Source: Candidatus Bathyarchaeota archaeon
GTDB taxonomy: Archaea > Thermoproteota > Bathyarchaeia > Bathyarchaeales > Bathycorpusculaceae
DNA: 64,000 nucleotides
NCBI GenBank assembly: GCA_026014485.1
Contig: JAOZIE010000012.1
Coordinates: 1-64,000, forward strand
Direction of reading: 5' to 3'
A model generated the notes under the pieces. It made no database searches and was not told the DNA's origin. It worked only from the letters and a program-made list of their open reading frames with translations. Position numbers and translations under genes: made by a program. Below, piece after piece: positions 1,603-56,526 of this stretch (positions within the stretch are counted from its first letter, which is position 1; every line of letters begins with the position of its first letter).

Positions 1603-2508
1603 TCAGTGTTTTCGTTTTTCCAGAACCATTATCAACAAAACTGCAACCACTAGAACCGCAACCACGACGAGGATGACCGTTAAAGTTTCGCCGCTCAGGA
1701 AAGGCGTAGCTGGAGAAGTAGAGGGCTCAGCAGTCGCGGATACAGAAGGTGAAGTTGGGGGTTGGGGAGTTGAGGTGGGTTGGGCTGTTGGAGTTGCTGT
1801 TGGCTTTGTTGTTGAGGTGGGAGAAGGGGAAGGGGATGGAGTGGGAGTTGAAGTGGGTATTGACGGGGGCGCTACACCAAATACTCTCACCGCAGAGGCA
1901 CCAGTTAACCCTTCTCCCACAATGGCGTAGACCACGAGGTTGTGTCTGCCCCCCGACAAGTCAGCTAAAGTTGCGTTATTAGTCAAAGTCACATTTGCCT
2001 GTCCATCTAGGGAGTAGAACATTTCAGAAACTGGTTCCTCCAAAGCGAAACGTAGGGGTATCTCGGATACGTTGTACGTTAAGGGTTCAGGAGACAAAAT
2101 CCTGACCCGGGGAGGGGTAATGGTATCCACCGTGAAACCGACCATAAGGGAATCCCCACGGTTATAGCCATTCCCGTCAGTCGCCGCTTCAATGCGTATA
2201 GTGTGGTAGCCATCACTTAAACCGGTTATATTCAAGGTTCCGTGATACTCCTGAAAACTTCCCGGAGGCGCTTCATTAGGAAGCTCATAGAACGTATAAT
2301 TTATCCAGTAAATGTTCTCCCATTCGCCCTCGTCTATACGATAATTGATGACTCTGATGTAGGGGTCTTGTGTGGAAACCTCGAATTCCACTAACAAAGG
2401 GCTTCTAACCACTGCATTGTTTTTGGGGTAAAGGATGGAAATCTTGGGAAGCCCCGAATCAGAGGCTTTTGCCAAAGCTACGAGCAAAGCTGAAGCCAAC
2501 AGCACCAA
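1603..2508 (-). CDS. Secreted surface protein with Pro/Thr/Ser stalk and C-terminal membrane anchor
   Basis: The open frame gives 301 aa from a TTG at 2508. It contains Ig-like beta-sandwich sequence (about 20-215, with repeated 'sDGYHTIRIEA' and 'SGGRHNLVVYA' patterns), a long PTS-rich stalk (about 216-268) and a C-terminal hydrophobic helix followed by EKRKH. The TTG would cut into the signal peptide: the frame upstream still reads KTRKRRLLISILLLVLLAS. An ATG at 2587 is in another frame, but dropping one G from the GGGGG run near 2567 brings it into frame and gives a complete signal peptide. The true gene is therefore probably 1603-2587 with a one-base indel. The function is unknown; it is probably displayed on the outer face of the cell. 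A conserved dyad lies upstream. Confidence 0.7.
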   Translation of the reverse strand: MVLLASALLVALAKASDSGLPKISILYPKNNAVVRSPLLVEFEVSTQDPYIRVINYRIDEGEWENIYWINYTFYELPNEAPPGSFQEYHGTLNITGLSDGYHTIRIEAATDGNGYNRGDSLMVGFTVDTITPPRVRILSPEPLTYNVSEIPLRFALEEPVSEMFYSLDGQANVTLTNNATLADLSGGRHNLVVYAIVGEGLTGASAVRVFGVAPPSIPTSTPTPSPSPSPTSTTKPTATPTAQPTSTPQPPTSPSVSATAEPSTSPATPFLSGETLTVILVVVAVLVVAVLLIMVLEKRKH

Positions 2509-2619: not shown

Positions 2620-2641
2620 CTTATCAAGGTTTCTTGACTAA
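2620..2641. promoter_or_regulatory. Dyad operator, single copy (surface-gene motif)
   Basis: CTTATCAA-GGTTTC-TTGACTAA is a 22-bp imperfect dyad. The right half (TTGACTAA) is identical to that in the four copies at 23.7 and 56.5 kb, and the left half differs at two positions from TTTGTCAA. It lies 33 bp upstream of the ATG at 2587, close to the 37 bp seen at the two other loci. Confidence 0.6.
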
Positions 2642-22276: not shown

Positions 22277-23695
22277 TCAGGTAAGGCGTAAACTGGAGGC
22301 GTTTGCTCTGTTACGTTTACGTTTCTTAAAGTAAACCAGTTCACCCACAGACAGCATCAGTACTAATGTCACTATTACATATGAAATCAAATCTGTGCAA
22401 GGATTAGCTCTTGAAGAAGGATTAGGCGTAATGGTAGGCTCTAAAGTTGATTGCGGGGTTGTAGATGGAGAAGGATTAGGAGAAGGGGAAGCACCAAGTG
22501 AAGTCGAAGAATATGCGGGGGTAGCTGCCGCATTTGGTGTTGGTGAGGATTGTTCAGGGGGGTCGGGTTGAGTTATTGTTGGAAGAGGGCTAGGCGGTGC
22601 TTCTCCGTCGTACACCCAAAAGGTAGCATTTGAATTCACCTTAGCACCAAAAGTTGTTTCTCCATAAACGGTGAGCTGATGCAACCCATTAGGCAGACTA
22701 AATAGGCAAGTGTTTGCCAAAGTAGGGTAAGGATGCTGGTGAGGCATGAAGGTGATATTCGTAAAAGAGTATGATGCGCCGTCTATGCTGTAATTAAGCC
22801 AGGCTAGGGTTTCAAATTGAGCGGAACCATTTAAAACAACCCGTTCTGCTAGGGTTTTTGTCTCTATAGACACTTCGGAAGTATTGTAAACGGCACCATC
22901 TACAGGCGAAGAGATTTCTACTTGTGGAAGGGGTGGAACTATTTCAAAAGGTTCTATCTTTGTCGTTCCTGTAATGCTGTTTTCATCTGTCACTTCCACG
23001 TAGATTTGGTGTTCTCCAATAGCTAAAGTGTTTGTAGAGTAATATGTTGAACTTACAGATGAGGTGGTGACCTCAACTTTTTGGTCATCGATATACCAAG
23101 TGTAAGTGTATTGTTTCTGTGCGCCTTCAACATGCACTGCAAAGTTGATGGTTTTACCGAAATAAAGAGGACGTCCTGGTTCACGCAATTTGGCTGTGAT
23201 GGTAGGGGGTGGTTTGGGGTCTAAGGATACTGTAAATTTGTGGGTTTTAGTGGAAGTAAAACTGTGTTTTACATCTTCCCCCTCGTAAATACTGTATGCT
23301 GGAACATTTATTGTAAGGGTGTGTTCACCAAAAGCTAAGGGTCCAACCTTCTCTACATAATTAAGGCGTCTTGAACCCCCACTGCTTGAGTAAACACGTG
23401 TGGTGTCGTCTTTAACTATCTGCTTGCCGTCAAGAAAACACTGTATGGAAGTAACAGTGCCTACGACACTCCCATTCCAAGAACCAGGCATGCTAACGGT
23501 GAAAGCCACCGTAACATTCTGATACATTACCCAATCTGAGGGGCTTGTCAAAGAAATTGAAGGCGTAGATATGTACCTATAACCTGGATGATAAGGGTTG
23601 GCACTAACTCCAGCAATGCAGCCTACCTCAATTACGGAAGCAAACAGCAAACAAAGCAGCAGCGTATAAGTTAATGTTTTATTGTTCACAGGCAT
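22277..23695 (-). CDS. Secreted surface protein with PKD/Ig-like repeats, PTS stalk and C-terminal anchor
   Basis: 472 residues from the ATG at 23695 (MPVNNKTLTYTLLLCLLFAS, a signal peptide); a TTG one codon upstream is also open. The ectodomain contains Ig/PKD-like strands (VTVAFTVSMPGSW, TYTWYIDDQKVEV, EHQIYVEVTDENSITGT, VEISSPVDGAVYNTSEV). A Ser/Pro/Thr stalk (about 375-435) and a transmembrane helix with a basic end (FKKRKRNRA) follow. The N-terminus and upstream DNA are closely similar to the gene at 55389-56468, so the two arose by duplication including the promoter. Two tandem dyads lie upstream. The function is unknown; adhesion or S-layer association is possible. Confidence 0.78.
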   Translation of the reverse strand: MPVNNKTLTYTLLLCLLFASVIEVGCIAGVSANPYHPGYRYISTPSISLTSPSDWVMYQNVTVAFTVSMPGSWNGSVVGTVTSIQCFLDGKQIVKDDTTRVYSSSGGSRRLNYVEKVGPLAFGEHTLTINVPAYSIYEGEDVKHSFTSTKTHKFTVSLDPKPPPTITAKLREPGRPLYFGKTINFAVHVEGAQKQYTYTWYIDDQKVEVTTSSVSSTYYSTNTLAIGEHQIYVEVTDENSITGTTKIEPFEIVPPLPQVEISSPVDGAVYNTSEVSIETKTLAERVVLNGSAQFETLAWLNYSIDGASYSFTNITFMPHQHPYPTLANTCLFSLPNGLHQLTVYGETTFGAKVNSNATFWVYDGEAPPSPLPTITQPDPPEQSSPTPNAAATPAYSSTSLGASPSPNPSPSTTPQSTLEPTITPNPSSRANPCTDLISYVIVTLVLMLSVGELVYFKKRKRNRANASSLRLT

Positions 23696-23706
23696 CAATT
23701 AGATGC
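23692..23706. promoter_or_regulatory. Inverted repeat spanning the start codon
   Basis: GCATC-N5-GATGC overlaps the ATG at 23695 and could fold in the mRNA to hide the start codon. The same arms and loop length occur at 56465-56479 in the paralogous gene. Confidence 0.4.
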
Positions 23707-23731
23707 TAGATTTGCTTGGCTTTAGAGGGTT

Positions 23732-23753
23732 TTTGTCAAAATTCCTTGACTAA
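23732..23753. promoter_or_regulatory. Dyad operator, proximal copy
   Basis: TTTGTCAA-AATTCC-TTGACTAA, 37 bp from the start codon of the minus-strand surface gene. It covers the place where a TATA box would be expected, so the binding protein would probably repress. Confidence 0.65.
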
Positions 23754-23766
23754 ACAGCTTTGAAGG

Positions 23767-23788
23767 TTAGTCAAATTTTCTTGACTAA
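23767..23788. promoter_or_regulatory. Dyad operator, distal copy (perfect)
   Basis: TTAGTCAA-ATTTTC-TTGACTAA is a perfect 8-bp inverted repeat with a 6-bp centre. It lies 35 bp from the proximal copy, start to start. It sits between the divergent surface gene and the candidate regulator at 23972. Confidence 0.7.
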
Positions 23789-23971: not shown

Positions 23972-24334
23972 ATGAGTGATGAGCTTAAAGAACTGAAGAA
24001 AATATCAAAAATTCTAACATTGGCTAATGCGGAGTTATTAGAGAAAACAATAGCTGATTATGCTTCAACTAACGAAAGAAAAATGATTTGGGTCCTCATT
24101 GACGGAGTCAGATTTCCTAAGGATATGGCGTCTGAGATTGGCAACATCAAAGTCAGAGCAATTGAAATTTTCCTTGAAGAACTTGAAAAAGCTCAGCTAA
24201 TCGAAAATCCAAAAAGGAAAGCAGCTGAAAAACTAATCGAATATGTACCACCAAGCTGGATTACATTACTAGAAGAAAACAAGAAGCAAACAAAAAATAA
24301 GCCAAGAAAAAGAGCAACTAAACTAAAAAAGTGA
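23972..24334 (+). CDS. Lys-rich winged-helix-like protein, candidate regulator
   Basis: 120 residues. The middle reads like a winged helix: ERKMIWVLIDGVRFPKDM (helix 1 to the turn), ASEIGNIKVRAIEIFLEELE (recognition region) and KAQLIENPKRKAAEKLIEY (wing/linker). A basic tail KKQTKNKPRKRATKLKK ends the protein. No named family was recognised, so DNA binding is inferred from pattern and charge. It is divergent from the surface gene at 22277-23695, and the tandem dyads lie between them, which makes it the best local candidate for the dyad-binding protein. The gene is AT-richer than the housekeeping genes. A 65-codon frame before it (23760-23957, TTG) is doubtful. Confidence 0.6.
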   Translation: MSDELKELKKISKILTLANAELLEKTIADYASTNERKMIWVLIDGVRFPKDMASEIGNIKVRAIEIFLEELEKAQLIENPKRKAAEKLIEYVPPSWITLLEENKKQTKNKPRKRATKLKK

Positions 24335-55388: not shown

Positions 55389-56468
55389 CTAGTTCTCTTT
55401 GTAGCCCTTCTTGAAGTAAATCGTTAAAGCTAAAACGGTGATTGCTATCAAAGCAGTTACTCCAACAAGAATGGACAGGCTGTTGTTGTCTGGTTCTGAG
55501 TTTGGCTTTGCTGTAGGAAGAGCTGTTTGAGTAGGTTCTGTGGTGGGTTCTTGTGTTGGGGCTGGTGATGAGTTAGAAGACAGTGAGGGATTCTGTGAAG
55601 GGGGTGGTGTGGGAGTTGGGGTAGGTTCAGTTGTAGGTTCCATGGTTGGTGTGGGGCTTGGTGTAGGTGTTGGAGTGTTTACAGTGAAGATAATAGTGTC
55701 AGATTCGCACATTGTGCCAGCTGAATTGTTTGAGTAAACAACGATACTGTGAATGCCCTCAGATAAATCTGTCAACATACTTTTTCCCTTTATGGTAGAA
55801 TTAAAGCCAGTTAACACAGCTTTCACTGATACGGTAGAGTTTTCTTGGTTGTCTAAGCTGTAACCTGTCCAGGAAGGTTGATTATCAACTGTGAAATTAA
55901 ACTCAAGATTAGGAGAAGTGTAGGTTTTGTTTTCTATAGACAGATTGGAGATTTTTGGAGGATTGGCATCAACGTAAAATGCTATCTGGATTGATTTGCT
56001 GTTCTGTTCTTTTTGAGGTGTGGTGGTCAAGCCTCCATAGAAATGCCATGCGTGCACCTCGATTCCCACTTCATGTTTACCCCCTGTCAAATTCTCCAAT
56101 TTAATGGTGTACTGATTTTTTTCGGGTAGCCGATCATCTATTCTGTTGCTGTTGTAAACAAGAACATATTTCCCGTCTATGTAGTAACTGACGCTTGCTA
56201 TAGCACTGCTGGGAGGTATTCCATATCCACCCCAAAACCATGAATTATCTGGTTTAGTAACGTTGAAATCTAAAATGGCTTCACCTATGGGGTAACTTCC
56301 ATTTTGGGTTGGTGTCTGCACAGTTAATATTGGCAGAGTCATATTAGGGCTGTCTGGAAAGATTACAACGTTGGGGTTGGCTTTAACAAAGTTTTCAGTC
56401 ATGAATATAGAAAGTAGGAGTGCAGAAATGATTGTTAGCGTCATGAATGTTCTTTTGTTTACAGGCAT
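55389..56468 (-). CDS. Secreted surface protein, paralog of 22277-23695
   Basis: 359 residues. MPVNKRTFMTLTIISALLLS begins a signal peptide ending near VKANP. Ig-like beta strands follow (VSYYIDGKYVLVYNSN, YTIKLENLTGGKHEVGIEV, EGIHSIVVYSNNSAGT), then a long PTPTPSPTPT-type stalk (about 264-330), a transmembrane helix and the basic end YFKKGYKEN. The start codon, its hairpin and both upstream dyads are arranged exactly as in the 23.7 kb gene. The ectodomain is otherwise diverged. It is probably displayed on the cell surface, with unknown ligand. Confidence 0.8.
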   Translation of the reverse strand: MPVNKRTFMTLTIISALLLSIFMTENFVKANPNVVIFPDSPNMTLPILTVQTPTQNGSYPIGEAILDFNVTKPDNSWFWGGYGIPPSSAIASVSYYIDGKYVLVYNSNRIDDRLPEKNQYTIKLENLTGGKHEVGIEVHAWHFYGGLTTTPQKEQNSKSIQIAFYVDANPPKISNLSIENKTYTSPNLEFNFTVDNQPSWTGYSLDNQENSTVSVKAVLTGFNSTIKGKSMLTDLSEGIHSIVVYSNNSAGTMCESDTIIFTVNTPTPTPSPTPTMEPTTEPTPTPTPPPSQNPSLSSNSSPAPTQEPTTEPTQTALPTAKPNSEPDNNSLSILVGVTALIAITVLALTIYFKKGYKEN

Positions 56469-56479: not shown

Positions 56480-56504
56480 TAGTTTTGTTTGTCTTATGAG
56501 GATT

Positions 56505-56526
56505 TTTGTCAATTTATCTTGACTAA
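56505..56526. promoter_or_regulatory. Dyad operator, proximal copy
   Basis: TTTGTCAA-TTTATC-TTGACTAA, 37 bp from the ATG at 56468, the same distance as the proximal dyad at 23732. Confidence 0.65.

Follow-up and report, generated by a model that had tools for sequence, protein, structure and literature searches.

ArnR and ArnR1 of Sulfolobus acidocaldarius are membrane-bound one-component regulators that act as activators, and their binding sites, the ArnR boxes, are two copies of TCGAC-N5-GTCGA located within -43 to -84 of flaB, both of which are needed for binding (PMC6396743). EarA of Methanococcus maripaludis activates a surface-appendage operon and is thought to recruit TFB, and archaeal activators are typically placed upstream of the BRE, where they help to recruit TBP or TFB (PMC5512572). 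In the case of TrmBL1, activation takes place from sites upstream of BRE/TATA and repression from sites downstream (PMC4706686).

The present analysis concerns a window of 64 kb, that is, the whole stretch of DNA analysed, from a member of the Bathyarchaeia. These archaea are abundant in sediments, and no described regulon in Bathyarchaeia was found by literature search. Five copies of the dyad TTWGTCAA-N6-TTGACWAA are present in the window, arranged in three clusters (two pairs and a single copy; Table 1). The first pair, consisting of TTTGTCAAAATTCCTTGACTAA and TTAGTCAAATTTTCTTGACTAA, was found where a sequence-only reading of this DNA had placed it, with the offset of 35 bp that it had given. 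The shared right half-site described there, TTGACTAA, indeed forms part of all five dyads; two extra copies of it (1979 and 26211) are isolated and neither belongs to a dyad. In agreement with the same reading, which had located the copies before membrane-anchored surface genes, all three clusters lie upstream of minus-strand genes of this kind. Allowing up to 3 mismatches, the window holds 10 strand-matches against 1.32 expected, a number reached by 0 of 100 shuffles, while an Rfam search of the window gave no match.

Table 1. Coordinates of dyads, promoter-like elements and putative target genes in the 64-kb window
Feature	Position	Strand	Remarks
Proximal dyad TTAGTCAAGGAATTTTGACAAA (gene direction)	23732..23753	-	adjoins putative core promoter of gene 22277-23698
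Distal dyad TTAGTCAAGAAAATTTGACTAA	23767..23788	-	35 bp from proximal dyad 23732-23753; palindrome arms perfect
BRE/TATA-like element	23720..23737	-	BRE-like ACAAAAA overlaps dyad end; TATA-like TCTAAA 23721-23726; inferred from 53-promoter alignment
Putative target gene, secreted, Ig-like (Big_7), C-terminal membrane anchor	22277..23698	-	likely ATG start 23695
Proximal dyad TTAGTCAAGATAAATTGACAAA	56505..56526	-	would serve gene 55389-56468
Distal dyad TTAGTCAAGAAAAGTTGACAAA	56539..56560	-	34 bp from proximal dyad 56505-56526
BRE/TATA-like element ACAAAAATCCTCATAAG	56493..56510	-	adjoins proximal dyad 56505-56526; putative, placed by alignment
Putative target gene, secreted Ig-like, stalk and C-terminal anchor	55389..56468	-	dyads kept by some homologs in other genera
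Lone weaker dyad TTAGTCAAGAAACCTTGATAAG, then TATA-like AACGCTTAAAT	2620..2641	-	2 mismatches; upstream of 1603-2508
Putative target gene, secreted protein, C-terminal anchor	1603..2508	-	called start ambiguous

A genome-wide scan of the motif, proposed at the outset, places its frequency far above chance: when no more than 1 mismatch is allowed, the whole genome contains 44 strand-matches, corresponding to about 22 places, versus 0 for a reversed control pattern. At the level of the class, 28 of 257 genomes have strict tandems, distributed over 7 genera and two families, with one control match. The promoter pattern composed of dyad and BRE/TATA is most frequent in genera g1, g14, g27, g12, g2 and g25 of family f1 and in g41 of family f6. 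A contig scan for the tandem core (257 Gb) returned scattered bacterial matches too, which were treated as chance. The 6-bp spacer lacks symmetry and differs between clades, being GAAAnn (gene direction) in the window's genome and nnTTTC in a second carrier genome, G048. No paper describing this motif or its regulon was found by literature search.

A further 15 loci of the window's genome were read as stretches around the sites, and nearly every cluster in them precedes a gene whose product has a signal peptide, a C-terminal span and a basic tail. Kelch, PQQ, NosD/beta-helix and Ig-like proteins make up the target types, and most sites of G048 resemble those of the window's genome in this respect. 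When genes were classed by a fixed hydropathy rule, with a hand-assigned target list and the other genes of the same loci as background, signal peptide and C-terminal membrane anchor were found together in 15 of the 17 targets and in 18 of 202 background genes (Fisher p = 2e-12). The proposed enrichment before secreted genes is thereby supported. Sequence evidence thus supports the conclusion that the dyads mark a dedicated regulon, comprising about twenty genes here, whose products are surface proteins that are secreted and anchored in the membrane at the C-terminus. The two exceptions are a Kelch gene (L013), with a signal-like stretch outside the called frame, and a NosD-type protein (L017) without a called C-terminal span. 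Signal-peptide stretches that are out of frame or devoid of a clear start codon were noticed both at this Kelch gene (L013:6200-6300) and at window gene 1603-2508 (2508-2620), and could reflect decay, assembly error or frame switching.

Many targets end in PEF-like C-termini, and IPEFPSW followed by a span and KK/RK tails is present in Bathyarchaeum targets. One target scored below the cutoff of TIGR03024 (PEF-CTERM), and the exosortase/archaeosortase family TIGR04178 occurs in 12 of 12 genomes checked (in the window's genome at G000:C12:4640 and C9:41107). Other genes recur beside the motif. A secreted/multi-span protein is a repeated target in different genera (L050:2937-4610, L120:5253-6878, L215:1082-1801), with a ferredoxin-like C-terminus in the first two, and radical-SAM-like genes repeatedly adjoin the sites (L219, L228, L026, L054). 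In addition, one site is divergent from a gene for an anaerobic ribonucleotide reductase that carries a winged-helix (DUF7347-like) domain at its N-terminus (L059:650-2872).

With regard to conservation, a search of 90 family relatives at 1e-15 gave no match to gene 22277-23698, and gene 55389-56468 has homologs in 11 other genomes. For the latter, the motif is present in the searched upstream stretch at 11 of 24 loci (including G030, G007, G019, G146 and G169), a count that takes in both window genes and one site at a stretch edge. In other words, the conservation before orthologous surface genes on which the sequence-only reading had staked its proposal holds at part of the homologous loci and fails at the others, so that the element is retained before some of the homologous surface genes and its turnover is fast.

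Alignment of 53 promoters on the proximal dyad gives TTAGTCAAGawwTCTTGACAAA-AA-n-CC-cTTTTA, in which BRE and TATA were assigned by sequence alignment alone: a purine-rich, BRE-like ACAAAAA lies at the edge of the proximal dyad, whose last 3 bp overlap it, and a TATA-like CTTTTA is found 6-10 bp beyond, on the side of the gene. The window's own proximal dyads stop 5-7 bp short of the TATA-like TCTAAA and TCATAA, on the side away from the gene, and the claim that the proximal copy covers the TATA position must therefore be abandoned. On the same alignment, a TATA-covering repressor is rejected as the main reading. Accordingly, from the initial proposal of a dedicated repressor coordinating surface genes the dedicated regulon is kept and the repressor is not, as in the 53 promoters BRE/TATA is located between the proximal dyad and the gene. 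Four tRNA upstream regions were tried as a TATA yardstick and set aside, being too few to provide an independent check.

The spacing between the two dyads of a promoter is 32-36 bp (51 cases) or 41-45 bp (18 cases), and twice 24-25 bp, with nothing in between. These values follow a period of about 10 bp (Rayleigh p ~1e-20), and both sites would therefore be bound from the same side of the helix. At L269, L273 and L246 the dyads overlap, with an offset of 15 bp and three half-sites, which extends the series to 15/25/35/45 bp; promoters with a single dyad also exist. In many promoters the start codon is 35-45 bp away from the dyad, a distance consistent with leaderless messages.

One of the G048 sites precedes the gene for a winged-helix membrane protein, and the family of this protein, hitherto undescribed, is a strong candidate for the reader of the dyads. 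Its members, among them G000:C23:524-1837 in the window's genome and G048:C1:439889-441181, begin with a conserved winged helix of 90 residues. A single membrane span (about residues 100-130), a coiled segment and some 300 residues of extracytoplasmic domain follow, and some f6 variants have a second, C-terminal span. The winged helix exceeds the Pfam cutoff for HTH_5 (PF01022), HTH_20 (PF12840) and DUF7347 (PF24038), the HTH occupying residues 18-58, and its recognition helix, SSSHLTYHLENLGEL, is near-invariant across the family. Pfam returned no convincing match for the ectodomain and no HAMP match in the family; HTH_metalloreg scored below cutoff, and among the conserved columns of the winged-helix domain there are no cysteine or metal-site residues. 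When the N-terminal 100 residues were modelled from a single sequence (pLDDT 65), the best Foldseek counterparts were ArsR/SmtB structures, with NolR on top and HlyU among them, and the modelled DNA-binding domain is assigned to this winged-helix fold; the model of the whole regulator (pLDDT 38) was discarded.

A profile search, used for the counts since a screen with a short f6 protein had missed or under-scored members, detected full-length or near-full-length regulators in 54 genomes, belonging to 8 of 109 genera and to two families. The genera with a full-length regulator are those carrying the dyad promoter. Specifically, 705 of the 765 promoters with dyad and BRE/TATA are found in the 54 genomes with a full-length regulator, versus 60 in the 203 genomes without, a count that ignores kinship, although the carriers belong to two families in which most genera have neither promoter nor regulator. 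In two genomes, G131 and G132, the promoter pattern matches 8 and 13 times and no full-length regulator was found, the first-look candidates of G132 having been only partly scored.

The motif is also found next to the regulator genes themselves. It occurs within 350 bp upstream, mostly in tandem, in 26 of 64 regulator-family loci read, which are taken from the best matches of one search and include 8 motif-bearing loci fetched with a site known nearby; 0.6 such loci would be expected at a 99% shuffle threshold, and p = 5e-23 under an assumed genome rate of 3%. The remaining 38 genes have no motif upstream, and counting the unread regulator loci as motif-negative still leaves about a third positive. 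In f1 genomes the dyads beside the regulator point away from it, into a divergent gene, whereas in f6 the promoter points into the regulator gene. The divergent partner varies by clade (small cysteine protein, radical SAM protein, NosD-type, NHL-type and others). In one clade it is a conserved small cytoplasmic protein of about 125 aa, often with C-terminal cysteines (L189:2019-2405), which receives a dyad promoter there and also at L185, L188, L192, L196, L202, L204, L212 and L244, and which has no informative Pfam match. On the regulator tree, the motif-beside-regulator label changes 11 times, compared with 20 for shuffled labels, so that the adjacency is clustered and yet was gained or lost several times; a simple origin of the motif-bearing regulators in one clade is rejected on account of these changes, at least 11 in number.

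The ectodomain profile also matches stand-alone secreted proteins lacking the winged helix, some of them among the motif targets or their neighbours (L039:1601, L043:464, L052:2209, L013:4808, L014:2-706) and others elsewhere in the same genomes.

Among described systems ArnR is the nearest, and by analogy the dyads may work in a similar way, although membership of the ArnR family is not claimed. Common to the two are a protein that carries an HTH at its N-terminus and is itself anchored in the membrane, a pair of inverted repeats directly upstream of the BRE, and control of the cell surface. ArnR, however, has HAMP, a sensor and two C-terminal spans, in contrast to the one central span and 300-residue extracytoplasmic domain seen here; its box is of 15 bp instead of 22 bp and differs in sequence from GTCAA-N6-TTGAC, and its targets are archaellum and pili instead of dozens of anchored Kelch, NosD and Ig-type surface proteins. 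ToxR/CadC-type membrane-bound regulators of bacteria likewise possess an N-terminal winged helix, a single span and an external sensor domain, but the helix is of the OmpR type and they act on sigma-factor promoters. ArsR/SmtB proteins (NolR, HlyU, CzrA, SmtB) have the same fold of the DNA-binding domain but are small and without membrane span, whereas here the domain is fused to a span and an ectodomain and the metal-site cysteines are absent. EarA resembles the present case as a winged-helix activator with repeated sites immediately upstream of the BRE, and differs in using 6-bp consensus repeats at one operon instead of 22-bp palindromes in a regulon (PMC5512572); nor is it known to be membrane-tethered. 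Finally, the Thermococcales glycolytic motif of TrmBL1, TATCAC-N5-GTGATA, is likewise a palindrome with a genome-wide regulon and upstream activation, but TrmBL1 is a TrmB-family protein of sugar metabolism, and its sequence and targets are unlike those of the dyad system (PMC4706686).

Taken as a whole, the reading to which we assign a probability of about 0.6 is that the dyads are paired sites of a dimeric, membrane-anchored winged-helix regulator, most likely activating a surface-protein regulon. The regulator would bind as membrane-tethered dimers, two per promoter and on one DNA face, its ectodomain would sense an envelope or external signal, and the signalled form would recruit TFB/TBP to the adjoining core promoter. 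Activation is preferred because the sites are upstream of BRE/TATA, a position that we infer to be activator geometry by the precedent of TrmBL1 and of activators generally.

Many proteins of the ArsR fold are repressors, and several Foldseek neighbours of the N-terminal model are named as such. A repressor that acts on the same sites and regulon by keeping TFB/TBP off the core promoter might also find some steric conflict in the 3-bp overlap of the proximal dyad with the BRE-like stretch. We nevertheless regard it as unlikely: both dyads lie beyond BRE/TATA, the second of them 34-45 bp further upstream and in helical phase, which recruitment fits better, and with TrmBL1 it is the downstream site that represses (PMC4706686). 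A slightly less doubtful alternative, though still an improbable one, is that another DNA-binding protein reads the dyads and that the membrane winged-helix family is one more target. Being a membrane protein with an outer domain, the regulator could indeed be a target, sites exist in G131 and G132 where a full-length member was not detected, and further HTH genes adjoin single sites (TrmB-like L012:6401-6826, DtxR-like L049:2181-2870). Against this, motif and membrane regulator co-occur at the genus level and the motif adjoins about 40% of regulator-family loci with differing partner genes, whereas the other HTH genes are beside a site once each. These divergent HTH genes were set aside as regulator, as was window gene 23972-24334, beside a site once and with no Pfam match.

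The fixed distance to BRE/TATA would also suit an extended core promoter used by a specialised TFB/TBP pair with no regulator, but two 22-bp palindromes whose spacing changes in steps of roughly one turn of the helix are what dimeric regulators typically use, and single-dyad promoters occur, which makes this very improbable. Hardly any weight is given to the idea that the repeats represent ends of mobile elements, or sites of recombination by which surface genes are shuffled. Inverted repeats in a surface-gene context would fit it, yet the sequence between and around the dyads varies by site, their position relative to BRE/TATA and start codon is constant, and no flanking element or shared insertion was found at the sites.

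Returning to the membrane-anchored activator, a tentative and rather doubtful extension is that its ectodomain reads the composition of the coat by like-with-like contact, tuning coat expression at the membrane, since the ectodomain is common to stand-alone surface proteins of the regulon. The analysis ties together a cis-element, a promoter layout, a surface-protein target set and a candidate regulator family across 8 genera. Moreover, Bathyarchaeum tardum, which is in cultivation, has one of the carriers, G048, as its type genome (PMC10477458), so that the link between regulator and motif is testable. If true, surface control of the ArnR type would extend beyond archaella and pili and take in a large adhesin-like protein coat.
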